Below, one piece after another: positions 8,276 through 48,002 of a stretch of DNA of 64,000 bases. Numbering within the stretch: the first letter of the stretch is position 1; each line of letters starts with the position of its first letter. This DNA is from Rubritalea squalenifaciens DSM 18772 (GTDB lineage: Bacteria; Verrucomicrobiota; Verrucomicrobiia; Verrucomicrobiales; Akkermansiaceae). The notes beneath the pieces are model-generated. The model was not told where the DNA came from and searched no databases. It was given only the letters and a program-made list of their open reading frames with translations. The DNA lies in NCBI RefSeq assembly GCF_900141815.1, contig NZ_FQYR01000002.1, forward strand, positions 62,001 to 126,000, read 5' to 3'. The translations under genes and the position numbers were made by a program.

Positions 8276-10312
8276 ATGAAATCATTTCACTATGTGCTCG
8301 CGTCAGTGAGCGCCCTCTCCCTGCTGCACGCAGAGGAAACACAGACCCTAGAAGCAAGCACCCTTACAGCCCAATCCCCGGACCTACTGGAATCGATCGC
8401 TAAATCCGAGGAACAAATCGCCTCACTACCCGGCGGCGCCACCATCACGGACTCTGCCGACTGGACTGGCAGCATCGTCAAGCCGGAGGAAATCTTCCAG
8501 TTAGACCCGGGTGTCTACGCCCGTTCCTCAGGAACCGCCAATGACACGCGACTCTCTGTGCGCGGCTCTGGCATCCAGCGCCGTTATGGCTCACGCGGCA
8601 TCTCCCTGCTGGTAGACGGCATGCCTGCCAACCACGCCGACGGCTCCTACTACTTCCGCATCTTCGATCCCCTCAGCATCAGCTACGTGGAAAGCTACCG
8701 CGGTGCAAACGGCCTTGCCTACGGCGGCTCACAACTTGGCGGCGCGATCAACGTCGTGCAAAAGAACGGCCTCAGTCATCCAGGCGGCCAGCTACTCGCA
8801 GAATATGGCTCTTATGACAGCTACCGTACCGCCTTCCAGTACGGTGGCTCCAACGAGAAATGGGACTGGTTCGCCGGATACACCTATGCTGAATCCGACG
8901 GCTACCGAGCCCACAGCAGCTGGGCTAGCCACCAGCTCAATACCAGCCTCGGCTACCATTGGTCTGAGAGTGCTCTGACACGCATCTCCCTGTTATTTAG
9001 TGACTCCGATGGCCTTCTTACAGGCTCCCTCACCGAAGACCAGTACGATGATGATCCACAACAATCGTCCAACGCTGGCACAGACCTGGACCGCGACCTC
9101 TCCACCATCCGTATCGGTCAACGCACCGCCTGGGAAACCGCAAACGGTGCCTGGCAGTTCTCCACCAACTACCAGTACCTCGACTTCGACCACCTCACGA
9201 CCACCAAGGGTCTCTTCTTCCCGAAGTTCGATAACCTGATCGACTACGATACAGACGAGCTCTCCCTCAACCTACGTGGACGTCAGAGCTATTCGGCATT
9301 GGGCCTGAAACACACCTTCCGTTCAAACTTTGATTTCATCTATGGAGTCAATGAACTCGGAGGATCTTCAGCATTTGGCGCCGCAGGCATCGTCGATAGA
9401 AAAGAGACATCTCGTAACCTGAACGTGTATCTGGAAAACACTAGCCACCTGACAGAACAGCACAACCTGATCTACGGCCTCGGCTACGTGGACTCCTACC
9501 GCAAGCGAGAAATTCGCTCCGCAGACAGCACGGGCCTTACCCGCTTTGACGATTCTCAAAACGGTTTCACCTGGCGCGCGGGCTACCTCTATGAGCTCGA
9601 CGAGAAGAACCAATACTTCGCAAACATTTCTCAATCCTTCGAATCCGCTCCATTTTCCGAACTCGGCAACATAGCCAACCCTCAGGAAGCGATCACCTAC
9701 GAGATCGGTACGCGGCTTGCACCCACAAACTGGCTCAGTGGCGAGCTAACCCTCTACTACTCCGAGGTGAACGAGGAATTCGTCTACGAAGAAACCGGAC
9801 CTGGCACCAATGTCTACAATGTAACGAATGCCGACACGACACATCAGGGAATCGAGCTCGCTGCTCACGCCAATCTAACGGAAGCATTCAAGTTGGCAGG
9901 GAACACAAGCTACAGCTTCGACCTAGCCTACCAGCTGAATGACTTCACCTTTGATGAAGGACCAGCCAAAGGTAAGGACATTCCAGTCGTATCCAAGCAC
10001 GTCATCAGCTCCCGCATCACTGCAGGCGATAGTGATGGACGCTGGAAGGCAGCCCTCTCTGTTGATTGGCTTCCTGACGGACTCGTAGCAGATAACAACA
10101 ATACCCTCAGCACACCAGGCTATGCCCTCTGGGACCTCTTCGGCGAATACCAAGTCACTGAAAACCTCAGCATCTACGCTGGCGTGGATAACCTCCTCGA
10201 CAAGAAGTACGTCTCCACTGTGACCGTCAATCCTGACACCTCAGGCACTCCAGCCTACATTAACCCCGGTGATGGACGCACCGCCTACATTGGCGCGAAG
10301 CTGGTCTTCTAA
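8276..10312 (+). CDS. TonB-dependent outer-membrane receptor
   Basis: The 678-residue protein has a signal peptide (ends near LLHAEE), an N-terminal plug domain and a 22-strand-type barrel finishing in GRTAYIGAKLVF with C-terminal Phe. Plug landmarks are the LSVRGSGIQRRYGSRG segment, LLVDGMPANHADGS and YGGSQLGGAINVV, which are closest to siderophore and metal-chelate receptors of the FecA group. Such receptors import ferric chelates, copper complexes or cobalamin using TonB energy. The substrate cannot be read from sequence. The partner PepSY membrane gene follows after a short hairpin-containing gap, and a CPMC protein gene precedes it. Confidence 0.92.
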   Translation: MKSFHYVLASVSALSLLHAEETQTLEASTLTAQSPDLLESIAKSEEQIASLPGGATITDSADWTGSIVKPEEIFQLDPGVYARSSGTANDTRLSVRGSGIQRRYGSRGISLLVDGMPANHADGSYYFRIFDPLSISYVESYRGANGLAYGGSQLGGAINVVQKNGLSHPGGQLLAEYGSYDSYRTAFQYGGSNEKWDWFAGYTYAESDGYRAHSSWASHQLNTSLGYHWSESALTRISLLFSDSDGLLTGSLTEDQYDDDPQQSSNAGTDLDRDLSTIRIGQRTAWETANGAWQFSTNYQYLDFDHLTTTKGLFFPKFDNLIDYDTDELSLNLRGRQSYSALGLKHTFRSNFDFIYGVNELGGSSAFGAAGIVDRKETSRNLNVYLENTSHLTEQHNLIYGLGYVDSYRKREIRSADSTGLTRFDDSQNGFTWRAGYLYELDEKNQYFANISQSFESAPFSELGNIANPQEAITYEIGTRLAPTNWLSGELTLYYSEVNEEFVYEETGPGTNVYNVTNADTTHQGIELAAHANLTEAFKLAGNTSYSFDLAYQLNDFTFDEGPAKGKDIPVVSKHVISSRITAGDSDGRWKAALSVDWLPDGLVADNNNTLSTPGYALWDLFGEYQVTENLSIYAGVDNLLDKKYVSTVTVNPDTSGTPAYINPGDGRTAYIGAKLVF

Positions 10313-13470: not shown

Positions 13471-16400
13471 CTAGGCATCCAGCCTGAGGGCTGCCTTTTG
13501 GGCGGCGGATCTCGCCTTGGACTCGTCGATGTCCTTCTCTGCGGTGAGGCGCATGCCCACCGGCTTGGAGACACCGAACTCCTCCATGGTCACCCCGTAC
13601 ATCACGTCGGCGCGGCCCATGGTGCGCTTACTGTGCGTCACGATGATGAACTGTGACTTGTCGATGAAGTTATCGAGCACCTTGAGGAAGCGTCCGATAT
13701 TGGATTCATCCAGCGGTGCGTCCAGCTCATCCAGTACACAGAACGGACTTGGCTTGATCTGATAGATGGAGAAGAGAAGCGCTACCGCAGTCATGGAGCG
13801 CTCACCACCGGAGAGCAACGTGATGGACTGCAGCTTCTTGCCCGGAGGCTTGGCAATCACATCAATGCCGGACTCCAGCGGATCTTCCTCATCCACCAGC
13901 AAGAGGTTCGCTTGACCCTTCTCACCGAAGAGCACCTTGAACATCTCTTTGAAGTTCGCCTGGATCTGATTGAAGGTTTCGGTGAAGCGGATGCGGGTTT
14001 CGATATTGATCTTCTCGATCACGCCGATCAGCTCATCCTTGGCATTGACGAGGTCATCGTGCTGTCCGCGGACAAAGTTGTGGCGCTCTTCGAGCTCTTC
14101 GTATTCCTCGATGGCGTCCACATTGACCGGCCCCATGGAGTCCAGCTTGTGCTTCAGCTCGGAGACGGCACGCTCCACAAAGTCCCAATCAGGACCATCC
14201 TCACCCGGGATTTCGATGTCGTTAGAGTCATCGGCCTCGTTGGTGATTTCCTCTTCCTGCTCGTTCTCCTCCTCTTCACTGAGGCTGGACTTGCGGCGGG
14301 CATTGCGGACAAAGGCTTTCTTCTGATCGGCGATGCAGAGGAGCAGCGCATGACTGTCTGGACGGAACACCTCGAGGTCGATCTGGTGGCGCTCCATCAT
14401 GTTCTCCTGCAGACTCTCCAGGCGAAGCTCTACCTTGGTGGCAGACACTTCTTCTTTACCCTTCTGATCACTGATCTTGGAAACCTGACGGCGGACCTCA
14501 CCCAGCTCTTTCTCTGCGACGCTGATAGATTCCAGGATCGCGTTACGGCCAGAAGCGGCTTCTTCCAGTCTTTCCTCAAGGAAATTGGCAGCGGCGGTCG
14601 CTGTCTCGATCTCTTCAAGAAGCTGAGCGTTCTCACCAGTGGCGGACTCGATACGTTCACGGAAGGAGATGATTTCGCTCTCGCGGCGGGAAGTCAGGTG
14701 GCGGAGTTCCTCCAGGCGGGCAGCCATCGGCTGTTGCTGTTCCTCGGCGGACTGTAGAGCACGTCTCTCAACCGCAAGGTTGGTGCGCAGCTCGTTCAGA
14801 ACTGTCGCCGCCTCCTGCTCGCGGTTCATGGAGTCCTCCAGCTCACGGTTGAGCATCAGCTGGCTGGTCTCCAGCTCCTCGAGTCGCTGACGTGCGGTGG
14901 CCAAGTCGGCCTCCTGGGTCTCACGGTTACCGAGGGCGCTGTTTTCGCGTTCCTTCAGTTCATTACGCTCCCACTCATTGTTGGAAATCTTGCTTTCCAG
15001 TGACTCTACCTCGCGGGTAGCCAGACTTACCTGACCCTGCAGGGTGGACTCATCCACGCGGGCTTTCTGCAGGCGTTCGCGGGCCTGCTCTACGGCTTCA
15101 CGCTGCTCAGCCATCAGGCTCTCCAGAGTTTCCACCTTCTGCTTGGCTGCCTGCTCTTCTTCAACCAGTCGGGCATTGGATTCTTCCAGCTCGCGGATCT
15201 CGTTCTGCCTTTCCAGAACGGAGGAGCTGGCATCACCGCCCACACCACCGCGGATAATCCCCTCAGGGGACATCACTTCACCGGCAAGCGTGACGAAAGT
15301 CACATCCGGGAGATCCTTGCGCAGCTTGGCGGCAAGCTTAAGGTCTTTGACCACGAGCACGTTCTCCAGCAGCCTGGTGATCACCGGAGCTACGATCTTG
15401 TCTGCCTCCACCTTGTCCAAGGCCCAGGCCTCGGCACCGTCCGGCACATGCATCAGCTGGGCTTCACTCTGCACCGGGATGAAATCCTCAGGCAGGATCG
15501 CCGCCTCACCCATCTTCTTCTCGGTCAGCGTATCGATGATGGATTCCGCCAGCATATTGTCCCTGACAAGCACGGTCTGCAGGTGACTGCCGAGAGCAGC
15601 CTCGACGGCTGGTGCGAAGGAATTTTCTACCTGGATGAAGTTGGCTAGCACGCCTCGCACGCCACCTTCGTAAAGCTCTTTGTCATCCAGTCCGGAAAGC
15701 ACGCTCTGGGTTCCCTTCTGGAATCCTTCACCGCTGTCGACGAGCTGCTTGAGCACTTCCAGACGGGAAGAAACCTTGGCTAGCTGCTTGTGCGCCTCAC
15801 CTGCCGCATCTCGGCTGGCATCCAGATCACCACGGGTGTGCTGGAACTTGCGCTCACAGGACTCGAGATCTTCTACCAGACTAGCAATCTTGGTGGTACG
15901 GCTTTCCAGCTCTTCCACCTGCTTCTGCTTTTCGATCACTGCCTGCTCGTGCTCAATACGGAGCTTCTCATCCTCCTCAGCCAGCTGGCGGGCGCGCTCA
16001 CGGTTGCCTTCAAACTGGGAGAGCATGCTCTCGATCTTCGCCTGGGCGGCGGCAATGAGAGACTGGGTGCGGTTCGCCTCGGTACGGACTTCACGCAAAG
16101 AGCCTTCACGCTCCTCACGCACCGCCTTGGCCTGAAGGACACGCTCTTCATGCTCGCTGACCTGAGCCTGCTGGGACTCGATGCGCTGGGAAAGCTCGTC
16201 CAGAGTCTGGACGGCTTCCTGGAGATCCGTCTCTTGCTGCATCAGCTTCTGACGGGTTTCTTCAATGTCAGACTCGTTCTGCTGGATTCGGCCCATCAGC
16301 TCGGCCTGGCGCTCGTTGTTGAATGAAATTTTTCCTTGGGCGGCGCTGGCGGCATTGCGGCGCTCGTTGAGCTGCTGGCGGATCTCGCTCAGCTGGCTCT

Positions 16401-17458: not shown

Positions 17459-20400
17459 TTAAAGACCGAAATCAATCTGGCCCGCCTCGTGAAGTTCGCC
17501 ATCTCCTGGCACCTCCACCACATAGACCTGTCTGGTCTCGTTCTCACGACCCCAATGGGTGTAGACTTGGACCAGGTAAGTGGCAGGCTGAGAACTCCCG
17601 AGCTCCAAGCGATAACTCCCTGGCATCGCCTTGCGCACCATGTAGTCCGCGAGTCCATTCTGTGCTGCACACCAGCCACCGGTCTCACTCACGCGATTAG
17701 GGGTAGCCTGCACTTCTGCAGGATCAGTCACACGCAAGTAGGCTCCCTGATCAACCTGGGATGAACATACCACGATACGAATATCTGAAGGGTAAACCAG
17801 GGAATCGAAAAATGCTACCGCCCCATAAAAATCCTCCTCATTAGGGAGAAACTTCAACCTAGTCATTTCCATGGCCTGTACATTTCTCCACAACCTCCAA
17901 TGCTCGAAGAACTTCACATGGCAGCTCAACCAATTCACCACCCACTGCTCGGCGCAGAGCTTACTCGTCCTCCCCATAGCCAGCCAGCGGTCGTAAAAAA
18001 CAAGCTCGTCCTCTGGATCCGCAACCTGAATGAGAGCAAGCAGCTCATCTGCTCCTTTGCCGTCTCCCATAGCAATCATGTGATAAGCCGCAGCGCGCAT
18101 GTCCTGCACGCTTATGCCCGACTTCAGCCCATAGATGCTTGAGAGCACACGGCGGGCCTTGTGACCATCCTTTTGCTCATAGAGTTTCTTGGCCACCTTC
18201 AGCTTAACGTCGCGGCTCGCCGTCCCCTTGAGATTCAGATAGGCCTGCCAGACATCGCCCGACTCTAACACATCGCTCACATTACCCGCTGGAGACTTCG
18301 CCTCGATCACAGGCTGAACCTTGCCTGACAACTCGACTCCATTGAGACGACGCACTGGCAACTTACCTCCCGCCTTCCCAGAATCGCCGCCACCAGCCCG
18401 CCAGTCGACACCCAGTGGCAAGGTCGACTGCTCGACTGCGGCGCGCTTGCTCGCCCTGGCTGTACTGTCTTTAGTCACTTCAAGACCTCCATCAGAAAAG
18501 GGATCGGCGGAAAAGCCATCACTGAGGAGAAGGTCTCCGTCCAGCATGGGAGGCATGACCACCACCATATCTCCGGGAAAGAGTTGCTGAGGCTTATAAT
18601 CCTTGCTCACAGTATTGTAGATGGCGCGGTCTGCATTCCGGTAAATCGCCACACGGTCACCGATCTCATCATCGTAAATTCCGCCCGCCTTCTCAATCGC
18701 CTGCTTCAGGGTAGCCCCCTTATCCAGCGTGATGGTTTTCCCATCATTCACGAGACCCCTAACAGAAACAGCAAACTCATGTTCCGGCACCTTGATCGGC
18801 GTCCCAGTGAGCTGAGCTCCTGACTCCTTCACCTCCTCCAGCCGCTGCATCCATTGCTTAAGGTCCTCCTTGCTCTTCACCTTGTCCTTGCCATGAACCA
18901 GCGCCTTCACCTCGTCCATCCACTTGAGGAAAACTTGATGATTGGTGTCAGCAAGCTGCTCCTTGGTAAAGACGGAGGCCTGGGCATGAGTCCATTGCTC
19001 GACCCTGATATAACGTGGGTAAAGCTGGTACTCCATCCATGGGTAGGATTTCTGGTACCAATTATAGCGCCTACCGTGATCAAGTTGAGCCCCATGCACG
19101 GTTCCTTGAAATCGCTCACTCCATCTTGATCTGGCATAGGAACCCACCTCTTGCTCATACTTCTCCAGTAAGTCAGGCTCCGGCGGCGGAATCTGATAGC
19201 GCAAGTGATCCTCGAAACGCTCCAGCACAATCATGGCAGTGCTATCACTCACCAGGTGATACTGCTGGCAATGCTTCAGGATCGCCTGCGTGGGACCCTG
19301 GGTAGTAAAATCCTCACGCTCCATTTCCGCCAGCTTACGCTGGGCCCAGAGCTTGCGCAGCACCTCGCCATTAGTCTGGGCGAATGCGGCATCACTTAGA
19401 GTCTCCACCAGCATAACCTCCTGCCCGTAGCCAAATTTCAGCACAATCCCATCCGTTCTATCAGTCTTACACTTGCCGATGATCCGGAGCTTTTCTCCCT
19501 CAGCCTGTACATAAGTGCTGTCGAAATAGCCTTTCACCTCAATCAGACGCGGGCGCAGCTTGATAATCTCCTCTGCCATCGCGGCGACCTTCTCCGCTCT
19601 CACATCCATCACTCTCCCTCCAGTCGCTTCTGCCAAACCAAGTAAAGGAAGGTCAGGATCTGCAAGTGCACTCGAATCCAGAATATGCACCACCCCTCGT
19701 GGACTCAGCTTCTGCAACGGAAGGTGCAGCGCACCTTCACCCACAAACAAAATACGGTCTGCATTTCGGTCTTTAAAATCGACGGCTCCCCAGTTCGCCA
19801 CCCCGGCGTAGTCGATCTGATTGATCTGCTGCTTCAGCTGACTCCAGTCCCCGCCACGCACCTCGTACTTCCCCTGGTAGTCGGCATGTAAATCGACCAC
19901 CGTCAGCTTCACATCCACATTCCCCAGTTTCTTGAACAAAGCATCCAGCACCTGCATTTCCTTCTTCAAGTCCCTTCGATAACCACTGACAGAGGCATCC
20001 CAGAAAAGGCTAACCGTATTCGGCTTGCTGGCCTCAGCCCGCAACACCCGGTCAGGAATGGCCGTCACCAGATCGATATAAACCTCCTCACCCACCTGAC
20101 CTCGAATCGATTTCTCAGGCGCCAGCTTACTGACAATCTCTAACTTTCCATCTAACACAACTCGCTTACTCTCGACAAATTTCACCCTCTCGTCCTCCTG
20201 CATCCGCCCCATTTTCGAGGGGAAGGAAACCTTTTCCACATCGCCACTGACCCGAATAGTGACATTCTCTACCATCTTCTTCAGCGCAAAGGGAAAGGCG
20301 TAAACCAACTTCCCATCCACCTCTTCCAGTTCATGCACGAAGCCGATGCGTACCGCCTTGGCGCGCTTCGGCAAGACCGGGAAAATCTTGGTCCGATAGA

Positions 20401-37475: not shown

Positions 37476-38966
37476 CTACTCGTAGCTCCACTTGAGCCTC
37501 CATGGATCCCTGGTCTCACGCTGGACCTTTTTGAGCTTCTCCTTGTACTCTTCGAGCACCTTGGCGAAGGCCGGATCAGAGGCCAGGTTGTTGGCTTCCG
37601 CTGGATCTTTCTGGATGTCAAACAGCTCGAACTCCGGGCGGTTGATGTAGGAGTCCACGGTACGGTTGCCGTATTTGGCATCCTTGCCCTGCTGGTACTG
37701 GGCCTGCCAGCTGGAAGCAATCCAGAGGTCCGAGGCAAAGGGGTAAGGTAGACCGTGGGCGATGTTCCAGATGAGCTTGTACTTGCGGTCGCGATATACA
37801 CGCATCGGATAGTACATCTGGATCTCGTGGAAAGTGTGAGATGCCATGATGTGATCCCACCCATCGGACTCCTCTGTACCAAGCAGCCCATACCAGGAGC
37901 GGCCCTGGTACTTTTTGGCAGGATGCCCCTGGTTTTCAAATTTCTCAGTCGGCTTGTACTTCAAAAGTGTCTTCGGTGCCTGCTTCGCCACGTCATAGCC
38001 ACCAGCCATATCGAGGATAGTCGGGGTAATGTCCACATGGGAGATCAGCGCGTTGTTCACCACGCCTTTGTTCTTCTGCTTTGGATCACGGACGACGAAT
38101 GGCACACGCAGGCCTGCCTCGTAGACGGTAGTCTTCGCCCCAGGGAAGGCCATGCCGTGGTCAGCGGAGAAAATGATAATGGTGTTATCCCACTTACCGT
38201 GCTTCTTGAGAATTTCAATGAGACGGCCTAAGCCTTGGTCCACTCGAGAGCATGACTGATAGTACTGGGCGATTTCCTCTCGACACTCCGGTGTATCGGG
38301 CAAGAACTCAGGAACAACGACCTCATTTGGGTCATAGAAGACTTCATTCACCCCCTTGTGATGTTTTTTATCAGCCAAGTTTCCGAACAGGTTAGCCTTA
38401 AGCGTGAGCGGGGATGTCTTGTCCACTCCCCCACTGCGGTGCGGATCATGTGTTGCAAAGTACAGAAAGAATGGCTTGTCGCTCTCTTCACTGATGAATG
38501 ACTCGCAGCCGTTTGCCATTCCCACTGCCTTGTGGAATGAGCTACGGAGGTAGTTTTCAAAATGGTAAACCGACTCTGGTGCTACGTGGTACTTGCCAAT
38601 AGTAGCTGTACGGTAGCCATGGTGTGCCAGCTGAAGCGGCAGGCTCAACGCCGCCATGGTCTTGTAGGTAGTGAAGTGATGGTAATCGTGGGTGTGACCA
38701 AACTGACCATTGGCATGATTCTGTATACCTGTGAGGATCACCGAACGACTCGCTGAACAGCTGGCGGTTGTCGCAAAGGCTTCGGTAAAAGTGGTACCCT
38801 CAGCTGCAAGGGCATCCAGATTTGGTGTTTTGATGACTTTATTTCCGTAGCATCCGGCTATCGGTGATTGGTCATCGGTGATAAAAAGAATGATATTCGG
38901 CTTCTCCGCGGCCTGCGTCAGGCACGCCGCAAAAAGGCTCAGTAGATAGAGAACAGTAAATTTCAT
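37476..38966 (-). CDS. Secreted type I sulfatase (heparan N-sulfatase-like, S1 family)
   Basis: The 496-residue formylglycine-dependent sulfatase removes sulfate esters or N-sulfate from glycans. It has a signal peptide (LLSLFAACLTQAA). The metal-binding start is PNIILFITDDQ. The maturation motif CSASR has Cys70 as the formylglycine precursor in the C-x-A-S-R variant. FSADHGMAFPGAKTTVYEAG supplies the second metal and substrate block and is typical of the N-sulfoglucosamine sulfohydrolase group. The start at 38966 precedes the signal peptide; the frame upstream to 39140 is not conserved. It diverges from the lyase gene at 39175, so the pair probably acts on the same sulfated glycosaminoglycan. 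Confidence 0.9.
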   Translation of the reverse strand: MKFTVLYLLSLFAACLTQAAEKPNIILFITDDQSPIAGCYGNKVIKTPNLDALAAEGTTFTEAFATTASCSASRSVILTGIQNHANGQFGHTHDYHHFTTYKTMAALSLPLQLAHHGYRTATIGKYHVAPESVYHFENYLRSSFHKAVGMANGCESFISEESDKPFFLYFATHDPHRSGGVDKTSPLTLKANLFGNLADKKHHKGVNEVFYDPNEVVVPEFLPDTPECREEIAQYYQSCSRVDQGLGRLIEILKKHGKWDNTIIIFSADHGMAFPGAKTTVYEAGLRVPFVVRDPKQKNKGVVNNALISHVDITPTILDMAGGYDVAKQAPKTLLKYKPTEKFENQGHPAKKYQGRSWYGLLGTEESDGWDHIMASHTFHEIQMYYPMRVYRDRKYKLIWNIAHGLPYPFASDLWIASSWQAQYQQGKDAKYGNRTVDSYINRPEFELFDIQKDPAEANNLASDPAFAKVLEEYKEKLKKVQRETRDPWRLKWSYE

Positions 38967-39174
38967 TGGGCTGTAGATAGAAGGTTCGGTGTTTGCGTTG
39001 CCCACCCCTGAGGTGAACTTGATCTTAATTATATGTACCTTTGGGCTCAATTCTTGCAAAATATGCCAAAGTCTTACTGGTCCTCTTTTAGGCTCAGATC
39101 GATCTAGCCGGGAAATGACGCAAGAATAACATGTCATCATTGAAAGTCTGGCCCCCTCTACCTGTATTACAAGA

Positions 39175-42156
39175 ATGTTTCACTCCGCTCTAAAAATCCT
39201 ACCATTTCTGATCCCGCTGAGCCTCAGTGCTCAAAGCTTGGATGAGCCCGTCTCCTTTGAGAAGGACCAGATCCCCCCCAACTACTTTACCAAGGGAGGG
39301 TCGCTCTCACTGACCAAGGATCATATCCAGGACGGCAGCCAAGCGCTACGCTGGGACTTTACAGAGGGAGCCACGTTGACACTCAACACCGGAGCTCTGG
39401 GAAACATCAATGTCTACACAGGCTACGGAAACTACTCACGCTCCGCACTCACACTCCCCGTCTATTTGCCCGAGACCGGCCAAGGCAAGCTGCTGGTAGA
39501 GATCCGCGCCGGAGAGGAGACAGCAGGGCTCATTGAGGTCCCATTCTCTCATACTGGCTGGCAAAAGCTCGTCTACCACTACAGCTGGCACTCCAAGATC
39601 GAATGGACCAAACCCAAGCTGCGCGACAAGCTGGACAACATCCGCATCACTGCCAAGGACGTGGAAAAGCCAGGCTATGCGATCTTTGACAAGATCATCT
39701 ACAACAAGCCGCTGGACTTCAGGGCGGGCCGCAACGCGATCACCGAGATCTGGCTACCAGAGAAGCACGACTTCTCCGGCGCAGCCCAACCTAGCGCCGA
39801 GGATCTGCTCAAGCTCGACCAGCTTTCCAAGGAGCTCCTTCCGAGCCCCAACCCAAAAGTCAGCAGGCAGCAATGGGAGCAGATCATCGCGCGCTACCAG
39901 AAAACGATCCAGGACAAGAAGTGGCAAATGGGCAACCCCATCGACCAGGGACTGGCCAACTACTTTGGCTTCCTCAACAGCATTGCCAATGACTGGTGCC
40001 GCTGTGCCGACCCGGAAATGAAAGCCAAGCTGGCAAAGACCTTCCACACCACGCACGACTGGCTGCAGGAGCAAGGCTTGGTCGTCAATGGTGCCTGCGG
40101 CAAGGCCAACAACTACGTGGGCCGCCTCTATGTGGATGCCGCCACCAAAATGAGAGATGCCCTCAAGGAACATGGCAATGTAGACATCACCCTCAACTAC
40201 CTCAAGTGGGCCTACCACTACGACGATCAGGTCTTCGGTGAGAATCACCACGAGTCGATGGACTACTTCCATAACGAGGCCCTACGCCTCCTGCGCATCG
40301 CCAACATGCATGCCGACCCCGTGGAGCGCTACCACCACGTAGAGACCTTCCGAGATGTGCTGGGCAAGCAACTCCAGACATCCATCAAGCCGGACGGCTC
40401 CATCTTCCACCATGGTTTCCATTACTTCGCTTATGGCAGCATGGGCATGAACTCAGTCTCCGGCACGCTCGCACTCATGAGCCAAGCCGGTTTTGCCGTG
40501 GCGGAAGAAGGGCTGGATATGGCCAAACTTGCCGTCATGAAAATGCGCTGGTACTCAGGCCGCACGACACTTTGGTCGCTCTCCGGCAGAAACCCAGCCG
40601 GCACCCAGAAGGTTCCCGTAGGCGCCTTCTTGAACCTCGCCAAAGCCTATGCCCCCTACCGGGAGGGCAAATGGGATAGCGAGCTGACAGCGGCCTATCT
40701 TCGCTTCCAACCGGATCAGGCAGAAAAGCCCGAATTCCAAGGCTACCAAGCGGAAACCTCACCCAATGGCTTTGACACTATGCCCTATGCAGCTCTCGGC
40801 ATGCACCGCCGCCAGGACTGGCTGGCCGGTGTCAAAGGCTACTCCAAGTATGCAGCCTCTGGGGAAAGCTACGCCAATGCCAACCGCCACGGCTACTACC
40901 TCTCCATGGGCCAGCTTGAGCTACTCACGCACCCTGCAAAGCTACCCACCGTCCTAGGCTCCGGCACCAGACCCAACGAAGGCTATGACTGGTGCGCCAT
41001 TGAAGGAGCCACGACCTTTCATTCGCCGCTCGACAAGATCGCCAACGGCAATGGCACCCGCATGCCCCGCAGCCAGGAAACATTCGTTGGCGGCCTCTCT
41101 CACGACCAGCGCAATGGAGTCTTCGTACTCACGCAAAACAGCGCCGCCTCAGACCTCGTCATGCGTGACCGGGCTAAAGACTCTCCCAAACCAGAACCCT
41201 TCAAAGCCCTCAAGTCCTGGTTCTTCTTTGACAATCGAATCATCTGCTTGGGATCTAACATTTCCACAAAACATGTTAGCTACCCGGCACGCACCAACCT
41301 CTTCCAAAAATTTCTAACGGATGAGTTTAACACGACCATCGTGAACGGAGAAAATTTCAGCTTGGCCGACTCTGTCATTGCCAAAGATTATACAGGGGAG
41401 ATCACCGCCCTAACAGACCCCTACGGAAACAGCTACATCACTTCCAAACAGGACCAGGTCCATCTGCGCATCGGCGAGCAGAGCTCACGTGATGGTTCAG
41501 ACAAGAAGGACACCAAAGGAAACTACGCCACCGCCTGGATCGAGCATGGCATCGACCCACAGGATGCAGGCTATCAATACGCGGTATTAGTCCAACCGGA
41601 GGAAGGTGAGACCGAGGCCTTCGCCAAGTCACTTCCCTACCGGGTCCTCAAAAAGGACGCGGAGGCTCATATTGTCTTGGATAAGACCAGCAAGAGCATC
41701 GGCCACGTGATCTTCAATGCCAATGCTGATCTCACGCAGATCAAGACGCCACTGATATCCACCTCCATCCCGGCTCTGGTCATGACGGAGAACACGGAGA
41801 AAGAACTCATCGTCAGCTTCACCAACCCGGATGCTCGCACGGACGCTAGCGAGCCTCTTCCAACGACTATTACCCTCAAAGGCGAACACCTCTGCGATCA
41901 ACTGCCAGAAGGAGTCAGCACCGAACTGAAGGATGGCAACACCTTGATCACCGCTTCTTTCCTCCACTCGGAGCCTGTCACGATTCATTTCACCAAGCCA
42001 CTTCCTTTGGTCGAGGCGACAGAGATAGAAGAGAGCCATACAACCAGCACGGTTAACTACTTCATCATCCCCGGTGAATACGTGGCCATGGTGGGAGGTG
42101 GCATCGCCCTCCTCCTGATTGGCATCATGGCTGTGGGCAAACGCAGCAAACGCTAG
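39175..42156 (+). CDS. Polysaccharide lyase, chondroitin ABC lyase-like (PL8 type), with C-terminal anchor
   Basis: The 993-residue exported enzyme resembles chondroitin sulfate ABC lyases. It has a signal peptide (FLIPLSLSAQ), an N-terminal beta-sandwich lyase_N domain (to about residue 190) and an alpha-toroid with the active-site region FHHGFHYFAYGSMGMN (His residues around 412-417, Tyr after). A super-sandwich domain begins at GYDWCAIEGATTFHSPLD and includes RMPRSQETFVGG. Unusually, it ends in FIIPGEYVAMVGGGIALLLI ... KRSKR, a hydrophobic helix plus basic tail of the kind used for surface sorting, without a PEP or LPXTG motif. It is divergent from the sulfatase gene, and a strong terminator follows. 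Confidence 0.85.
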   Translation: MFHSALKILPFLIPLSLSAQSLDEPVSFEKDQIPPNYFTKGGSLSLTKDHIQDGSQALRWDFTEGATLTLNTGALGNINVYTGYGNYSRSALTLPVYLPETGQGKLLVEIRAGEETAGLIEVPFSHTGWQKLVYHYSWHSKIEWTKPKLRDKLDNIRITAKDVEKPGYAIFDKIIYNKPLDFRAGRNAITEIWLPEKHDFSGAAQPSAEDLLKLDQLSKELLPSPNPKVSRQQWEQIIARYQKTIQDKKWQMGNPIDQGLANYFGFLNSIANDWCRCADPEMKAKLAKTFHTTHDWLQEQGLVVNGACGKANNYVGRLYVDAATKMRDALKEHGNVDITLNYLKWAYHYDDQVFGENHHESMDYFHNEALRLLRIANMHADPVERYHHVETFRDVLGKQLQTSIKPDGSIFHHGFHYFAYGSMGMNSVSGTLALMSQAGFAVAEEGLDMAKLAVMKMRWYSGRTTLWSLSGRNPAGTQKVPVGAFLNLAKAYAPYREGKWDSELTAAYLRFQPDQAEKPEFQGYQAETSPNGFDTMPYAALGMHRRQDWLAGVKGYSKYAASGESYANANRHGYYLSMGQLELLTHPAKLPTVLGSGTRPNEGYDWCAIEGATTFHSPLDKIANGNGTRMPRSQETFVGGLSHDQRNGVFVLTQNSAASDLVMRDRAKDSPKPEPFKALKSWFFFDNRIICLGSNISTKHVSYPARTNLFQKFLTDEFNTTIVNGENFSLADSVIAKDYTGEITALTDPYGNSYITSKQDQVHLRIGEQSSRDGSDKKDTKGNYATAWIEHGIDPQDAGYQYAVLVQPEEGETEAFAKSLPYRVLKKDAEAHIVLDKTSKSIGHVIFNANADLTQIKTPLISTSIPALVMTENTEKELIVSFTNPDARTDASEPLPTTITLKGEHLCDQLPEGVSTELKDGNTLITASFLHSEPVTIHFTKPLPLVEATEIEESHTTSTVNYFIIPGEYVAMVGGGIALLLIGIMAVGKRSKR

Positions 42157-42503: not shown

Positions 42504-43313
42504 ATGGAAACACCTAAATCAAACCGCGTGGGCTTTCTCTTGGACATGGATGGAGTCATCTACAAAGGCAAATCCGCCATCGAAGGCTCTGCAGCTTTCC
42601 TCGAGAAGCTTCGTGAAAACGATATCCCCTATCTCTTCCTGACCAACAACAGTCAGCGTACCCGCCGAGACATGGCGATGAAACTCCAGCGCATGGGCAT
42701 CCCTGCCGAGCGCGAACAAATCTTCACCTGCGCCATGGCCACCGCCCGCTTCCTCTCCGAGAAGAAGCCGGATGGCACCGCCTACGTCATCGGTGAGAAC
42801 GGTCTCGCAGCAGCTCTCCACCAGAACGACTACACCGTGGTGGATGATGATCCTGATTTCGTCGTGGTCGGCGAAGGCCGCACCATCAGCTTCGAGAACA
42901 TCGAGAAGGCCGTGCGTCTCGTTTCCAACGGCGCTGCCCTCATCGCCACCAACCTGGACACCACCTGCCCGACCGACGCAGGCATCCGCCCCGGCTGTGG
43001 TGCCATCGTGGCCATGATCGAGAGCGCTACTGGCAAGAAAGCCTTCTCCCTCGGCAAGCCAAGCCCGATCATGATGCGTATGGCCCGTAAAACACTCGGC
43101 CTCCGTACCGATGAGACCATCATGGTGGGTGACACCATGTACACCGACGTACTCGGCGCCGTTCAGATGGGCTACCGTTCCGTCCTCGTCCTCAGTGGCC
43201 ACACGACTGAAGAAGACATCAAGAGCTATGCCTATACCCCAGACCTCGTGGCCCCATGCCTGAACGCCATTCCGGATGAGTTCTTCATGCCAGCGGCTCT
43301 CGCCACCGTCTAG
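42504..43313 (+). CDS. HAD-superfamily hydrolase, class IIA (NagD-like phosphatase)
   Basis: The 269-residue phosphatase has the HAD motifs in order: motif I FLLDMDGVIYKGK (nucleophile Asp and acid Asp), motif II FLTNNSQRTRRDMA, the C2 cap ending GKPSPIMMRMA (motif III Lys), and motif IV MVGDTMYTDVLGAVQMG. Class IIA members dephosphorylate nucleotides or sugar phosphates; NagD itself prefers UMP. The last 90 bp, the stop codon and the terminator of this gene are repeated at 45602-45768, on the far side of an AT-rich island. The present 3' end may therefore be either original or element-borne. Confidence 0.9.
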   Translation: METPKSNRVGFLLDMDGVIYKGKSAIEGSAAFLEKLRENDIPYLFLTNNSQRTRRDMAMKLQRMGIPAEREQIFTCAMATARFLSEKKPDGTAYVIGENGLAAALHQNDYTVVDDDPDFVVVGEGRTISFENIEKAVRLVSNGAALIATNLDTTCPTDAGIRPGCGAIVAMIESATGKKAFSLGKPSPIMMRMARKTLGLRTDETIMVGDTMYTDVLGAVQMGYRSVLVLSGHTTEEDIKSYAYTPDLVAPCLNAIPDEFFMPAALATV

Positions 43314-43391
43314 GTAGCCCTCTAGCAAATCCTTTTCATCTACATCATATCAGGAGCAGGCCACTCGTTGTCGAGTGGCCTGTTTTTTCTA
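43224..43391 (+). repeat. 3' end of HAD gene plus terminator, copy 1 (left boundary of island)
   Basis: The segment from AGCTATGCC (43224) to the T-run of the terminator recurs at 45602-45768 with about ten differences and one 1 bp indel. In the coding part the four differences (CCA/CCT, ATT/ATC, CCG/CCC, CCA/CCT) are all third-position and synonymous. The terminator arms remain paired in both copies. Confidence 0.9.
43357..43388 (+). terminator. Intrinsic terminator of the HAD gene
   Basis: CAGGCCACTCG (43357-43367) pairs with CGAGTGGCCTG (43372-43382), followed by T6. Confidence 0.93.
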
Positions 43392-43650
43392 TGAATCGTG
43401 AGAGTGACGCATCCTTCATCATGCCTCAAATCCAAACTGCGCCGTTACTCCCCAACACAGCTCTTTGCAAAAACCAACCGAATTAACCCGAGGACCTTTC
43501 GACCAGAAACAATGAGCAAATTTGGACTACGCACAGATACAGAAGTGTGATGTCCCCTTCTCTTCTAGCACTCTCATGCAGCGTGCTTCCCAAAGAGTTC
43601 CAGGTGATGCTTCTCCGAATGGCCCTCAACACCCGCACACAAGTCCAGTA

Positions 43651-43692
43651 GTGTCGTCTGTTTATTATTAATTAATAATAAACAGACGACAC
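43651..43692. repeat. Perfect 42 bp palindrome
   Basis: Two 21 nt arms, beginning GTGTCGTCTG and meeting at TTAA|TTAA, are exact inverse complements with no spacer. The arm supplies the last codons (VSSVYY) and stop of the minus-strand gene at 43672. It could act as a terminator or be a pair of abutted mobile-element ends. Confidence 0.9.
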
Positions 43693-44202
43693 GAGCTGCC
43701 TATCAAGCGCATAGTAACTATCTGACAGTCCGTACACTAGTTCATAGATACTCCTTTCAACAGGACGCCGTTTAACAGTTTTATCATCTGGACTATAATA
43801 TTTCATCACATCACAGACGACAATCTCTTTCGACAAAGCTATCAGTTCTTTACTAACCTCCCGGTTGAGAACAAAGTTTTTTTGTTCACCCACAAGAACC
43901 AATTCCATCCCGCATACTTCCTCACTGGACCGCTGAATAAAATCGTAATCTGGCTCTAGAACCTCAATGATTCTTATCAGATTTTTGACTGACTTGTTAG
44001 TTGCGCCACTCGCATTCTGTATTAATTCATCATGCCAGAATGCCCAGCGATATAGAGGAGCTGATGCTATCATTCCAGCGCCCCCATCACCTTGTATTTT
44101 GAACAAAGCCTCAGCCCAGTCCACATCTCCGATGACATCTTTACCACCCAACTCTTGAATACGTGAACCGCGAATCCAATAGATAGACCTATCAGCTCCC
44201 AT
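43672..44202 (-). CDS. Island protein of unknown function (second gene of cassette 1)
   Basis: The 176-residue soluble protein (GADRSIYWIRGSRIQELGG, DWAEALFKIQGDGGAGMIAS, YRWAFWHDELIQNASG, ERSIYELVYGLSDSYYALD) has no recognised family. The start lies 2 bp after the stop of the preceding gene (44205), so the two are cotranscribed. The C-terminus runs into the 42 bp palindrome, which suggests that the natural end was replaced. Size and setting would fit an immunity or accessory protein, but that is only a guess from context. Confidence 0.6.
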   Translation of the reverse strand: MGADRSIYWIRGSRIQELGGKDVIGDVDWAEALFKIQGDGGAGMIASAPLYRWAFWHDELIQNASGATNKSVKNLIRIIEVLEPDYDFIQRSSEEVCGMELVLVGEQKNFVLNREVSKELIALSKEIVVCDVMKYYSPDDKTVKRRPVERSIYELVYGLSDSYYALDRQLVSSVYY

Positions 44203-44204
44203 AC

Positions 44205-44474
44205 TTAGAATGATTGAATAATGATATCATCTGCAGAGAAAACGAGATTCGACTGCTGCTGTTGAAGGGCTTGATTTAACTTCGCCACACATGCCGTCAT
44301 GTCATAGGCACTATCATCAGCAATAACAAATTTGTATCCAATATTATTGTTTTGAGCTTTAATCATAGCAGCTGCGATTAGGTCGGCACCATCCATTATC
44401 TTGTTTGACACTGTTTCACTAAAAACAATAACAAGACAATATTTGAGAGAAAGGCAATCGGATTCATCTCTCAT
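44205..44474 (-). CDS. Island protein of unknown function (first gene of cassette 1)
   Basis: The 89-residue product begins within the 173 bp repeat: MRDESDCLSLKYCL is encoded by repeat DNA and is also present, in a different frame outcome, at the second copy. After the repeat the frame continues as a soluble helical protein (GADLIAAAMIKAQNNN, GYKFVIADDSAYDMTACVAK, LNQALQQQQ). The native start may be the ATG at 44396 (MDGADL), with the repeat-derived part an in-frame leader fusion. A GTG at 44480 is another option. No family was recognised. Confidence 0.55.
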   Translation of the reverse strand: MRDESDCLSLKYCLVIVFSETVSNKIMDGADLIAAAMIKAQNNNIGYKFVIADDSAYDMTACVAKLNQALQQQQSNLVFSADDIIIQSF

Positions 44475-44606
44475 GGTCACTACACTCAGTGTGACGTGTT
44501 AGTTTTCAGTTAGCACGACTTTCGGTAGATCCAGACCAGGTAATATTCAGGCATATTCCCCCTGGCCCCGTTTGTTCACTCCGTCCATACAGGATCCTTC
44601 TAGCTA
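44434..44606 (-). repeat. 173 bp direct repeat R, copy 1
   Basis: This segment is nearly identical to 45434-45606 (three mismatches), at an offset of exactly 1,000 bp. On the minus strand it holds, in order, AGGGGG before a 14-codon ORF (MPEYYLVWIYRKSC, 44510-44554) and the start of a second ORF, MRDESDCLSLKYCL (from 44474). It also has hairpins TGAGAGA/TCTCTCA and GTCAC/GTGAC. It looks like an expression leader placed in front of each cassette. Confidence 0.9.
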
Positions 44607-44938
44607 AGCCAAATAAATTGTCTGTCCTTTTATTAATCAAACAATTGGCCGGATGACCACAGAACATCAACCTAACAAATCCATGAATTCGTGTTGCAGC
44701 TTGAATGTTAATCCGCACCAAGCATTCTCTTCTCTTAAATTGTCTGTCTCTTTATTATGCTCCTTTATTATGAGAGCGACCAAAGGGCTATATCCTTCTA
44801 GGTGGTACGCCATGTCGGATATTATTCGGAACTATTTGAGGATGAGAAATTTTCTGGTGATCCTTACCGTAAGTTAACCTCCTCACAGGCAACTCAAGAC
44901 CTTAATGTTTTGGCAAGCAATTTGGTGTCGAGTAACAT
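44607..44938. other. Gap inside island with GTCTGT motif copies
   Basis: No protein-like frame is seen in these 330 bp. Two related motifs, AAATTGTCTGTCCTTTTATT (from 44615) and AAATTGTCTGTCTCTTTATT (from 44738), occur here. An ATCCTTCTAG at 44792-44801 repeats the right boundary sequence of both R copies, suggesting an old recombination junction. Confidence 0.45.
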
Positions 44939-45418
44939 CTAATAGTCTTGCATGTATTTCTTTTTTTCCTCGTAAGAAAGAATTTTTTTACCATGATAAT
45001 CTTTCAGATAAATGGCTTGTGTTTGAGGAAGTTTTGAAAAATCACAATCGGTAAAAACTACCGAGTCCAGCTTGGAAGAAGAATCGAAAAAATCTGAAAT
45101 ATCAGAAACGGAGGAGTTACTAACATAAAGCTCATCAACTTTGCGAAAATCGCGAAGAGTCAAATCATCTGTGTGACAGCTCACATGAACGGCTAAATAA
45201 TGATCAGGATCAGTCATCGGAACACCAAAAAACCTAGCTAAAGATGACCAAAAGTAGAAATCAGGGCTGTTGACTGAATGAATTTTTCGATCTGCATTCG
45301 GATACTTCATCCCAATAACCCAAGCTGGATTATCTAGCGTTATTTTAAATGTTCCAAATAGCAGTATTGAAACCATGGTAAAAACCACCCACTTTCTCCA
45401 TGTCATTCTGATTTTCAT
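44939..45418 (-). CDS. Island membrane-anchored protein of unknown function
   Basis: The 159-residue product has one N-terminal helix (WVVFTMVSILLFGTFKI) and an external, Asp/Ser-rich domain (CHTDDLTLRDFRKVDELYVS, SDISDFFDSSSKLDSVVFTD). The regular x-L-x-x-L pattern hints at a short leucine-rich-repeat-like fold. Its ATG at 45418 overlaps the stop of an 18-codon leader ORF from repeat copy 2 (TAATG), and there is no separate ribosome-binding site. Translation is therefore probably by reinitiation. Confidence 0.6.
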   Translation of the reverse strand: MKIRMTWRKWVVFTMVSILLFGTFKITLDNPAWVIGMKYPNADRKIHSVNSPDFYFWSSLARFFGVPMTDPDHYLAVHVSCHTDDLTLRDFRKVDELYVSNSSVSDISDFFDSSSKLDSVVFTDCDFSKLPQTQAIYLKDYHGKKILSYEEKKKYMQDY

Positions 45419-45474
45419 TAACAATAAAAAGACAGACAATATTTGAGAGAAAGGCAATCGGATTCATCTCTCAT
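45418..45474 (-). CDS. 18-residue leader ORF coupled to the 45418 gene
   Basis: The ORF begins in repeat copy 2 (MRDESDCLSLKYCL), continues 4 codons past it (SFYC) and stops at TAA overlapping the next ATG by one base. The same 14 codons open the first gene behind repeat copy 1. Confidence 0.45.
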   Translation of the reverse strand: MRDESDCLSLKYCLSFYC

Positions 45475-45606
45475 GGTCACTACACTCAGTGTGACGTGTT
45501 AGTTTTCAGTTAGCACGACTTTCGGTAGATCCAGACCAGGTAATATTCAGGCATAGTCCCCCTAGCCCCGTTTGTTCACTCCGTCCATACAGAATCCTTC
45601 TAGCTA
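45434..45606 (-). repeat. 173 bp direct repeat R, copy 2
   Basis: This is the partner of 44434-44606. Its right end (CCTTCTAGCTA) joins the duplicated HAD 3' end at 45602, with AGCTA shared by the repeat, the duplicate and the original gene. The internal ORF MPEYYLVWIYRKSC is at 45510-45554, again with GGGGG a few bases before its ATG. Confidence 0.9.
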
Positions 45607-45768
45607 TGCCTATACCCCTGACCTCGTGGCCCCATGCCTGAACGCCATCCCCGATGAGTTCTTCATGCCTGCGGCTCTCGCCACCGTCTAGGTAGCCCTT
45701 CAGCAAACCTTTTCATCTACATCATATCAGGAGCAGGTCACTCGTTTTTGAGTGGCCTGTTTTTTCTA
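45602..45768 (+). pseudogene. Duplicated 3' fragment of the HAD hydrolase gene with its terminator
   Basis: Positions 45602-45691 encode the last 29 residues of the HAD hydrolase (SYAYTPDLVAPCLNAIPDEF ...) with only synonymous changes against 43224-43313, then the stop codon and terminator (stem 45734-45743 with 45750-45759, then T6). There is no start codon or upstream part of the gene. Confidence 0.88.
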
Positions 45769-46120: not shown

Positions 46121-46840
46121 ATGAAACTCCAATACTCACTCTTGGCGTCTTTAGTAGCGATGAGCAGCGTTGCTTCTGCAGCCTCTATCGCTATTAACTT
46201 TGCCGAGAACACGAACCAGCAATTTGCCGGAGGAGCAGCAATCGGGCCAACAGGCATTGATAGCTCCAATTGGAACTCCACCATTGACCGCGACTCAGGC
46301 ACTCTCGCAACCGGCACGATGGGCAGCCTCATCGATGATACGGGCGCCACGACTACCTCATCCGTGACCTGGAGCTCGAACAATGTCTTCTATAATGCCG
46401 ATGGAACTGGAACTGATGAAGCCAGACTAGCCGTAGGTTATCTGGACGACAGCACAGGCGTAACCGTGACTGTCTCCAATATCACCTACAGCACATACAC
46501 TGCATACGTACTATTCACTTCTGACCAAAACGGTGACTACCAGCATGGTGAAATCACCGTAGAAGGAACCGCTCTTTTTGGCGGTGGCGACTTCAATGCA
46601 CACGGACGCGTGACTGACGGCACAGGCTGGGTAGAAGCCGACGGTACCGTGTTTGGTAACTATGCAACAATCACAGGCCTCACTGACTCCACCCTTGATA
46701 TCACATCCATCAGAAATGGTGCCGCCAGAGGCCCTATTACTGGTGTGATCATCGTGGATACGACAGCCGTTCCAGAGCCAACTTCTACGGCTCTTCTCGG
46801 CCTTGGAGGCCTCGCTCTCATCATGCGTCGTCGCAAGTAA
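46121..46840 (+). CDS. PEP-CTERM surface protein, tandem paralogue 1
   Basis: The 239-residue product has a signal peptide (SLLASLVAMSSVASAA) and a beta-rich middle similar to the next PEP-CTERM protein: ASIAINFAEN, NWNSTIDRDSGTL, TTTSSVTWSSNNVF, VTVSNITYSTYTAYVLFTSD, ITGVIIVDTTA. The tag is VPEPTSTALLGLGGLALIMR plus RRK. The function of the domain is unknown; it is likely a surface or matrix component sorted by exosortase. Its whole unit, including upstream DNA, is duplicated. Confidence 0.82.
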   Translation: MKLQYSLLASLVAMSSVASAASIAINFAENTNQQFAGGAAIGPTGIDSSNWNSTIDRDSGTLATGTMGSLIDDTGATTTSSVTWSSNNVFYNADGTGTDEARLAVGYLDDSTGVTVTVSNITYSTYTAYVLFTSDQNGDYQHGEITVEGTALFGGGDFNAHGRVTDGTGWVEADGTVFGNYATITGLTDSTLDITSIRNGAARGPITGVIIVDTTAVPEPTSTALLGLGGLALIMRRRK

Positions 46841-46866
46841 GGACCTTTGAAACGAGTTAAAGATTC

Positions 46867-46902
46867 ACCCGTAGCAGGATCTTCCTGCTGCGGGTTTTTT
46901 TG
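46867..46902 (+). terminator. Intrinsic terminator after PEP-CTERM paralogue 1
   Basis: ACCCG-T-AGCAGGA (46867-46879) pairs with TCCTGCT-G-CGGGT (46883-46895), followed by T7. Confidence 0.9.
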
Positions 46903-46967
46903 TGGCGTGCTCATGATACAGCAGGTCAAGTCACACTCTCTCAATCGGCCGTATTCCCTACTTACTC

Positions 46968-47285
46968 AGACTCCCTATGAGGGGCAATTTTCGTATTTAT
47001 TCGTGATCTTCGAAAATAGAGTCACATTTTTTTGAGATACTACTGGATACCCGCAAACTAGCCCAACCGTCCTAATCCAATAAAAATCAACGATTCCGAC
47101 ACAAAGCAAACTGCGAAACCATAACTCAGTAACAAGTATACAGCGCCAAAGTCATAAAAGGTTACATAAAAATCACTTTTAAAAAAACTCAATTTAGCAC
47201 CCTTAAATTACTGTGTTTCTATGCATTATAGAGAGTGCACTCGCACATTGGAATCAACCGATGTGTTATTCGCACACTATACTCA
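46968..47285 (+). promoter_or_regulatory. Conserved upstream region of PEP-CTERM gene, copy 2
   Basis: The blocks found upstream of the 46121 gene recur here about 1,190 bp downstream: AATCAACGATTCCGACACAA (47085-47104), CATAAAAGGTTACATAAAAA (47153-47172), ATAGAGAGTGCAC (47228-47240) and ATGTGTTATTCGCACA. Spacing between blocks is almost unchanged, while the sequence between them differs. Confidence 0.6.
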
Positions 47286-48002
47286 ATGAAAACACTGAAC
47301 AAATACTCCTCAGCCTTACTCGGGGCTGCAGCAAGCATTGGGATGGTTCAGGCAGCTTCAATCAGCGTCAACTTTATTGGCGGTGATGGAGGCAATGGAA
47401 CCATCGACTCTGCGGCTAGTACTGGCCGTAGCGGATTCGAAGCCACCAATTGGAACAACGTTGGTAGCGAGTTAGGTACACAAAACGACCTGACAGACAG
47501 TGCTGGCCTGACCACTACTGCCGACGTTACCTGGAACTCAACCAACGTTTGGGGTGACGGAACCGCAAATACCGATGCAGCCGGAGGTGACCCAGCCGCT
47601 CAGCTGATTCGTGGTTACCTGGATGATGGCGATACAGGTGGAGGTACTGGTGTCACTTTTGACGTGACCAATATCACCTATGCCCAGTACTCCGTCGTTC
47701 TCTACTTCAGTACAGATACTGAAGGGGGTAGCTACCGCACAGCGACTGTGAACGGTAACACCTATGACACTACTGGAACCAAGAGCGTCTGGTCAAACAA
47801 CCCGACCTTTGACGATACCAATACTATGGTCATTACCAACCTCAGTGGAGACCTCGATGTTGATTTGCTGACCCGTAACGGAGGCGACCGTGCCTCCATC
47901 TCTGGTTTCCAGATCATAGACACCACAGCCATTCCAGAACCGTCCTCTACGGCGCTTCTCGGACTCGGTGCCGTGGCCTTCATCCTGCGCCGCAGGAAGT
48001 AA
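47286..48002 (+). CDS. PEP-CTERM surface protein, tandem paralogue 2
   Basis: The 238-residue product has a signal peptide (ALLGAAASIGMVQAA), a beta-rich middle related to paralogue 1 (ASISVNFIGGDG, FEATNWNNVGSELGTQNDL, LTTTADVTWNSTNVW, FDVTNITYAQYSVVLYFSTD, ISGFQIIDTTA) and a tag, IPEPSSTALLGLGAVAFILR plus RRK. The ATG at 47286 aligns with untranslated leader of the 46121 gene, so the start site has moved between the copies. The upstream extension to 47235 lies in the conserved regulatory region and is rejected. Confidence 0.82.
   Translation: MKTLNKYSSALLGAAASIGMVQAASISVNFIGGDGGNGTIDSAASTGRSGFEATNWNNVGSELGTQNDLTDSAGLTTTADVTWNSTNVWGDGTANTDAAGGDPAAQLIRGYLDDGDTGGGTGVTFDVTNITYAQYSVVLYFSTDTEGGSYRTATVNGNTYDTTGTKSVWSNNPTFDDTNTMVITNLSGDLDVDLLTRNGGDRASISGFQIIDTTAIPEPSSTALLGLGAVAFILRRRK

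Follow-up and report, generated by a model that had tools for sequence, protein, structure and literature searches.

In a 64,000-nucleotide stretch of the Rubritalea squalenifaciens DSM 18772 genome (4.32 Mb, 17 contigs), hereafter called the window (positions 62001-126000 of contig NZ_FQYR01000002.1, our contig C2), an intact gene for a HAD-IIA family hydrolase is followed, across an island of other DNA, by a second copy of its own 3′ end. We regard it as sound that the two copies, A and B, are alleles that diverged while functioning as gene ends and that one of them was displaced here. As to the mechanism, we tentatively favor homology-anchored capture of DNA from a sister lineage, in which homologous exchange on one side would have been combined with an illegitimate joint on the other, and give it close to an even chance. 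Coordinates are window positions unless they carry the prefix C2, C4 or C10 (contigs of the same genome) or L (an individual stretch). The gene and its two ends are as follows.

42504..43313, plus strand: HAD-IIA family hydrolase gene, intact (Pfam PF13344/PF13242 and NCBIfam TIGR01460, above cut-off).
43224..43391, plus strand: gene end A, continuous with the HAD gene and made up of its final 90 coding bases, the stop and the terminator (direct repeat, translation, folding).
45602..45768, plus strand: gene end B, the displaced second HAD gene end with its terminator (direct repeat, translation, folding).

The recurrence of the last 90 coding bases and the terminator 2,378 bp downstream, proposed in an initial annotation made from the letters of the window, was confirmed. 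The repeat runs from 43224-43335 against 45602-45713 (93% identity) into 43328-43391 against 45705-45768 (94%), and the start-to-start distance is 2378 and then 2377 bp because of one indel; in a single BLAST alignment A and B share 168 bp at 94.05% identity. Homology ends sharply on both sides, and the first 17 bp are identical. The final 29 codons and the stop give the same translation in both copies, and a codon-by-codon comparison showed that the four coding differences (CCA/CCT, ATT/ATC, CCG/CCC and CCA/CCT) are all synonymous, as the annotation had stated. Under random substitution only 24-29% of changes in this region would be synonymous, so that four of four has a probability of 0.0034-0.0068 in a freely drifting copy. 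The terminator hairpin has the same fold in both, at -27.0 kcal/mol (z -8.3) in A and -22.7 kcal/mol (z -6.7) in B. The annotation was right that the stem of B is intact, and was mistaken in crediting a single G-U pair, since two can be read from the letters. Because the differences are synonymous only, A and B diverged as working gene ends. Selection on the second copy and the displacement of one gene end by another allele, both put forward before, are thus upheld, the latter by the meeting of two selected alleles at one locus. Four changes per 90 coding bases suggest a distance of roughly that between sister lineages.

We then considered the DNA between the two gene ends. It had been called AT-rich, which holds for 43651-45601 (G+C 0.39-0.42) against the HAD gene body (0.585) and less so for 43392-43650 (0.49). 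The contrast is not special, because the intergenic stretch to the right of B has a G+C of 0.375. A 198-bp direct repeat, a 42-bp perfect palindrome and transposon relics had gone unmentioned in the annotation. The features of the island, including its open reading frames (ORFs), are listed here.

43555..43635, minus strand: relic of a RAYT gene (47-bp match, 81%, E 1e-6; an adjoining weaker 36-bp match, 78%, E 0.03, is to another part of the gene).
43651..43692, no strand: 42-bp perfect palindrome (hairpin z -11.9 when folded as DNA).
43672..44202, minus strand: orphan ORF of 176 amino acids (one homologue, on C4, 31-32% identical; no family).
44205..44480, minus strand: orphan ORF of 91 amino acids (no family; it starts inside repeat copy 1 and is possibly not a gene).
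44414..44610, plus strand: 198-bp repeat, copy 1, of RAYT-element right-end type (repeat search).
44615..44635, plus strand: RAYT-type terminal repeat, exact (motif search).
44629..44718, minus strand: relic sharing 94% identity with C2:448785-448874, a segment that covers the 3′ end of an rve-like transposase gene plus the DNA that follows (Pfam match below cut-off).
44718..44759, minus strand: piece of a RAYT-element left end with a terminal repeat at 44737-44757 (motif and alignment).
44939..45457, minus strand: orphan ORF of 172 amino acids as listed, whose true start may be further in (no family).
45413..45610, plus strand: 198-bp repeat, copy 2, with a terminal repeat at 45422-45442 on the minus strand; the final 9 bases, AGCTATGCC, double as the start of B.

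Judged from these features, the island is largely debris of RAYT-type transposons, together with three orphan ORFs. The two copies of the 198-bp repeat stand in direct orientation and are 95% identical (98% over 177 bp), and the right end of copy 2 meets the start of B. A third copy, 75-76% identical, lies at C10:4400-4581, where a RAYT C-terminal fragment precedes it by 63 bp, and for this reason the repeat looks like the right end of a RAYT element. Among 387 genomes of the phylum the repeat was found in this genome only, in a search of limited sensitivity, which rated only a small number of candidates per genome and failed to pick up the third copy.

The terminal-repeat motif AAATTGTCTGTCCTTTTAWTA, with up to 3 mismatches, occurs at 29 sites in the genome, compared with 0 for the reversed motif. 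The sites cluster at C2:0.6-2.1 kb, in the island (C2 106.6-107.4 kb), at C2:447-479 kb, C2:652-666 kb and C10:2-5 kb. One or two matches were present in 5 of 38 other genomes, the same number as with the reversed control, and the motif is thus notable in this genome only. It flanks Y1_Tnp genes on both sides at C2:458 kb and C2:655 kb. Both genes match PF01797 above cut-off; one of them, scanned against NF047646 (REP-associated tyrosine transposase), scored 61.7 bits, below the cut-off of 80. We read AAATTGTCTGTCCTTTTAWTA as the probable terminal repeat of a RAYT-like element. It accompanies one kind of Y1_Tnp gene only, because, of nine Y1_Tnp matches in the genome, six are located outside the repeat clusters and the stretches around three of those six (C2:238, 245 and 322 kb) contain no terminal repeat. 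The island holds three terminal repeats and fragments of such elements, with no intact Y1_Tnp gene between inverted repeats. That the terminal repeat forms a hairpin was rejected, as four sites folded as DNA gave z values of -0.93 to 0.59. In a separate region rich in these repeats, L052 (C2:444000-463900), a 1911-residue RHS protein is encoded, a Y1_Tnp gene has five closely spaced terminal repeats just upstream (14280-14469), and the ORFs at the left end appear phage-like by eye.

At the left joint, the terminator of A passes into the island at 43391/43392. At the right joint, the 198-bp repeat passes into B at AGCTATGCC (45602-45610). Repeat copy 1, which we used as a proxy for the repeat sequence before the joint, reads AGCTAAGCC at the corresponding place; AGCTA is shared in full with the HAD gene, and over the 9 positions 8 agree (AGCTA(A/T)GCC). 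A run of at least 5 bp at a random joint has a probability of 0.0047. Because of this 5-bp microhomology with a transposon-end repeat, the joint resembles one made by illegitimate recombination. The other side lies within shared homology, A forming one unbroken sequence with the HAD gene and being homologous to B. Both properties are those that a capture model requires, which calls for 3-10 bp of microhomology at the illegitimate joint. Past B, the DNA can be followed into its neighbor.

46121..46840, plus strand: PEP-CTERM protein gene adjoining copy B (the DNA upstream, from 45850, recurs before a paralogue at 47235).

Because the DNA from 45850, 81 bp beyond B, recurs upstream of this neighboring paralogue, B is most likely the resident side. 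The PEP-CTERM paralogues themselves stand in tandem at 46121-48002 with related upstream regions (repeats D2 and D4).

We propose the following course of events, in which the donor, the identity of the foreign copy and the order of steps are what we infer. DNA of a sister lineage would have entered the cell, bearing its own HAD gene end with transposon-littered DNA behind it. On one side, homologous recombination within the HAD gene would have given the gene the incoming end, A. On the other, a RAYT-element fragment would have been joined by its end illegitimately, via AGCTA(A/T)GCC, into the resident HAD gene 90 bp before its coding end, so that the resident gene end and terminator, B, would now lie 2.4 kb downstream beside the same neighbor as before. 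Either a linear fragment may have acted directly or a fragment may have recircularised and entered by a single crossover; the product would be the same. Capture explains why the two ends differ as alleles do, why one joint shows microhomology, why a recombinase is lacking and why the gene is intact.

Processes of this kind have been described. In a study of E. coli conjugation, 56 of 60 Lac- recombinants yielded the PCR (polymerase chain reaction) product expected when the homologous locus is partly duplicated, and the duplications in 14 sequenced clones measured 109-950 bp; the explanation given is that the DNA was partly degraded, recircularised and integrated by a single crossover (PMC3240628). 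The same study gives 3-10 bp of microhomology for most homology-facilitated illegitimate joints in naturally competent species (PMC3240628). For type VI secretion system (T6SS) clusters of Vibrio cholerae, an anchored illegitimate event has been proposed to leave a displaced 3′ gene end (PMC5361080).

Several observations weigh against the capture proposed here. All three copies of the 198-bp repeat break off at AGCT, and the one at C10:4400 has no HAD sequence behind it; the shared stop points to an intrinsic element end beside B rather than to a chance break. The codon evidence is weak. At the four differing sites B fits the HAD gene body better than A (likelihood ratio 48), which points to A as the newcomer, whereas the ratio against three neighboring genes is 1.2, and the result thus varies with the reference chosen. 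Linear homology-facilitated events usually delete resident DNA rather than duplicate it, and in E. coli the joint lacked homology in three of four such clones (PMC3240628). Finally, the model is drawn from this one sequence.

Matches to the island were sought by several routes. The annotation had advised looking for the recombinase; none of the three island ORFs matches a recombinase or any other family in Pfam, NCBIfam, PHROGs or PADLOC at E values under 0.1. No match to the island DNA was found in plasmids or phages, or to the 172- and 176-residue ORFs in viral contigs; the 198-bp repeat and the 176-residue ORF were found in this genome alone among the 387, with no homologue of that ORF in the other 386. 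Structures predicted for the 172- and 176-residue ORFs had a mean predicted local distance difference test score (pLDDT) of 46 and 57, too poor for a fold search. The island ORFs may be orphan immunity genes, like the small ORFs beside the RHS genes of this genome, which is a guess by analogy. The C4 homologue of the 176-residue ORF (L145 7346-7873, C4:545345-545873) is a lone small ORF between ordinary genes; it is 31% identical, and both proteins start with MGADR.IYW.

We also looked for duplicated gene ends at related loci. Among named genomes, similar loci occur in Rubritalea profundi (best segment 80% identical in protein) and in several Akkermansiaceae records. The HAD gene was matched by DNA in 6 of the 30 genomes of the relatives' set, namely its own and five others, the best of which reached 76% identity. 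In 80 homologous loci with flanks of up to 5 kb, no second HAD gene or gene end was found; copy B in the window was recovered as a positive control (E 3e-15). An earlier protein test of these loci had merged matches less than 500 bp apart and could miss close tandem copies, and the result given is from the repeat without merging. In a subset of 37 loci (Verrucomicrobia or near, by title), 11 showed a short second match of 15-56 bp and none a duplicated gene end; the longest (L072, 56 bp, 82%) lies upstream of the gene, and five of the 37 (L071, L081, L083, L087, L093) reach less than 2.4 kb downstream. None of five neighboring genes had a close homologue beside the HAD gene in the 80 loci, where the weak matches were three to sulfatases (24-26% identity).

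The background was estimated from 20 control stretches (400 kb) screened for direct repeats of at least 80 bp and 85% identity, 300-15000 bp apart. Seventeen had none. In L155 there was a single pair, judged by eye to be a repeat shared by the 5′ ends of paralogues, and L156 and L157 had 17 and 16 pairs within a small-gene array. No gene-end pair comparable to that of the HAD gene was recognised in the 400 kb, the 33 pairs of L156 and L157 not having been inspected singly.

Capture has two serious rivals, both of which we consider unlikely. The first, which takes up the attachment-site reading of the annotation, is integration of the kind known for prophage e14 at icd: a circular element with its own HAD end and a crossover core (43224-43240) would have entered so that A restored the gene and B was displaced, the integrase being lost or encoded elsewhere. 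An island does lie between two gene-end copies with the gene restored, the 17 identical first bases of A and B would suffice for a core, the genome has other tyrosine recombinase genes (four above the Pfam cut-off), and architecture and size match those of e14 at icd, with a displaced end of 163 bp (PMC6379469). Yet no site-specific recombinase is recognised in the island, whose ORFs are without match and whose content is transposon debris; it has no relatives in plasmids or phages; the joint is one of microhomology; and the second gene end is absent from all 80 homologous loci. We thus regard the attachment-site reading as unproven and less likely than capture. A narrow literature query for protein-gene attachment sites that restore the gene gave none, which says little.

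Equally doubtful is a truncated second copy. A downstream allele or paralogue of the HAD gene would have been hit by a RAYT-type element at AGCT, and deletions between element copies would have removed its 5′ part. B begins exactly where the 198-bp repeat stops, the end at AGCT is the same in three copies, deletions between two direct copies would be easy, and the window holds other tandem paralogues. This reading, however, requires that a 94%-identical second copy was spared homogenisation, no second HAD-like gene occurs in the 80 homologous loci, and the codon fit to the gene body, weak as it is, favors B over A.

A second duplicated gene end in the same genome bears on the remaining explanations. 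At C2:658.7-667.6 kb, a gene that we take to be a GNAT gene has its final 120 coding bases and about 93 bp beyond them (213 bp in all, one difference) repeated on the far side of an RHS island of about 8.5 kb, the RHS match being computed.

L054 (C2:649000-668900) 9726-9938 and 18402-18614: GNAT-like gene-end duplication.

With two such gene ends in one genome, the process is not confined to one target gene. The GNAT case is less clean than that of the HAD gene, because the truncated copy is bordered on its outer side by a transposase-like relic, present also at C10 and presumably of IS66 type. It is conceivable, though improbable, that RAYT-type elements of this lineage bring neighboring DNA together with 170-210 bp of the target gene end and keep the target whole without an integrase, which would cover both cases. 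Less probable still is a target duplication of about 170-210 bp, made when an element inserted, with subsequent drift of the outer copy: the repeats at the HAD gene (168 bp) and the GNAT gene (213 bp) do resemble long direct duplications flanking an island, but four of four synonymous changes are unlikely in a drifting copy (P 0.003-0.007), and we know of no bacterial transposon with target duplications this long.

Two other candidates were rejected. The 1000-bp unit between the 198-bp repeats is not read as an integron cassette: the RNA fold of copy 2 is ordinary (z 0.9), and no integron integrase matched TIGR02249 above cut-off in the genome, the best score being 85.5 of 265 bits. A tRNA target was dismissed, as the window has no tRNA; no RNA family matched at gathering scores in the window.

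Elsewhere on the contig, L053 (C2:463901-482000) has many small same-strand ORFs parted by related repeats similar to the attC sites of integrons (AACAAGGCGCGGCACC ... GACGTTA). A single repeat fitted the strict attC pattern, as we presume that pattern to be, and the region is possibly an integrase-less cassette array. L155-L157 (C2:266001-326000) contain an array of small minus-strand ORFs with many repeats of 80-340 bp, adjoined by ORFs that we take, by their motifs, to be Cas1-like (L155:18719-19672) and Cas9-like (L156:1624-4989). Within the window, a polysaccharide lyase family 8 gene stands divergent from a sulfatase gene (37476-42156), probably a locus for sulfated-glycan use.

If capture is right, the locus is a readable fossil of DNA gained beside a working gene, which was left unharmed, by chance recombination without a dedicated enzyme. 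Displaced gene ends with synonymous-only differences could flag such captures in other genomes, and a duplicated gene end should not always be taken for an integrase attachment site. As a single case, it carries modest weight.

The locus can be compared with several known systems. As in the RAYT/REP (repetitive extragenic palindromic) elements, Y1_Tnp genes are flanked by a terminal repeat and the repeats cluster near genes (PMC2817692); unlike classical palindromic REPs, the repeat here has no stable hairpin fold, the scanned gene falls below the NF047646 cut-off and the island holds relics only. In E. coli, the e14 prophage likewise provides the 3′ end of a protein gene, and an original end of 163 bp is left on the far side (PMC6379469), whereas the HAD island is only 2.2 kb of transposon debris without a recognised integrase or phage gene, its boundary coincides with a transposon-end repeat, and 80 homologous loci show no second gene end. 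Homology-facilitated illegitimate recombination and the recircularised single crossover share with our case one homologous and one illegitimate joint and the partial duplication of a locus (PMC3240628), and differ in that our case is deduced from one sequence. In the effector displacement of Vibrio cholerae T6SS clusters, an incoming module anchored in conserved sequence is described as pushing the old 3′ gene end downstream (PMC5361080); here the anchor would be a HAD hydrolase gene, and an immunity role of the island ORFs is a guess. Taken together, these comparisons present the event as a good fossil of an already known kind.

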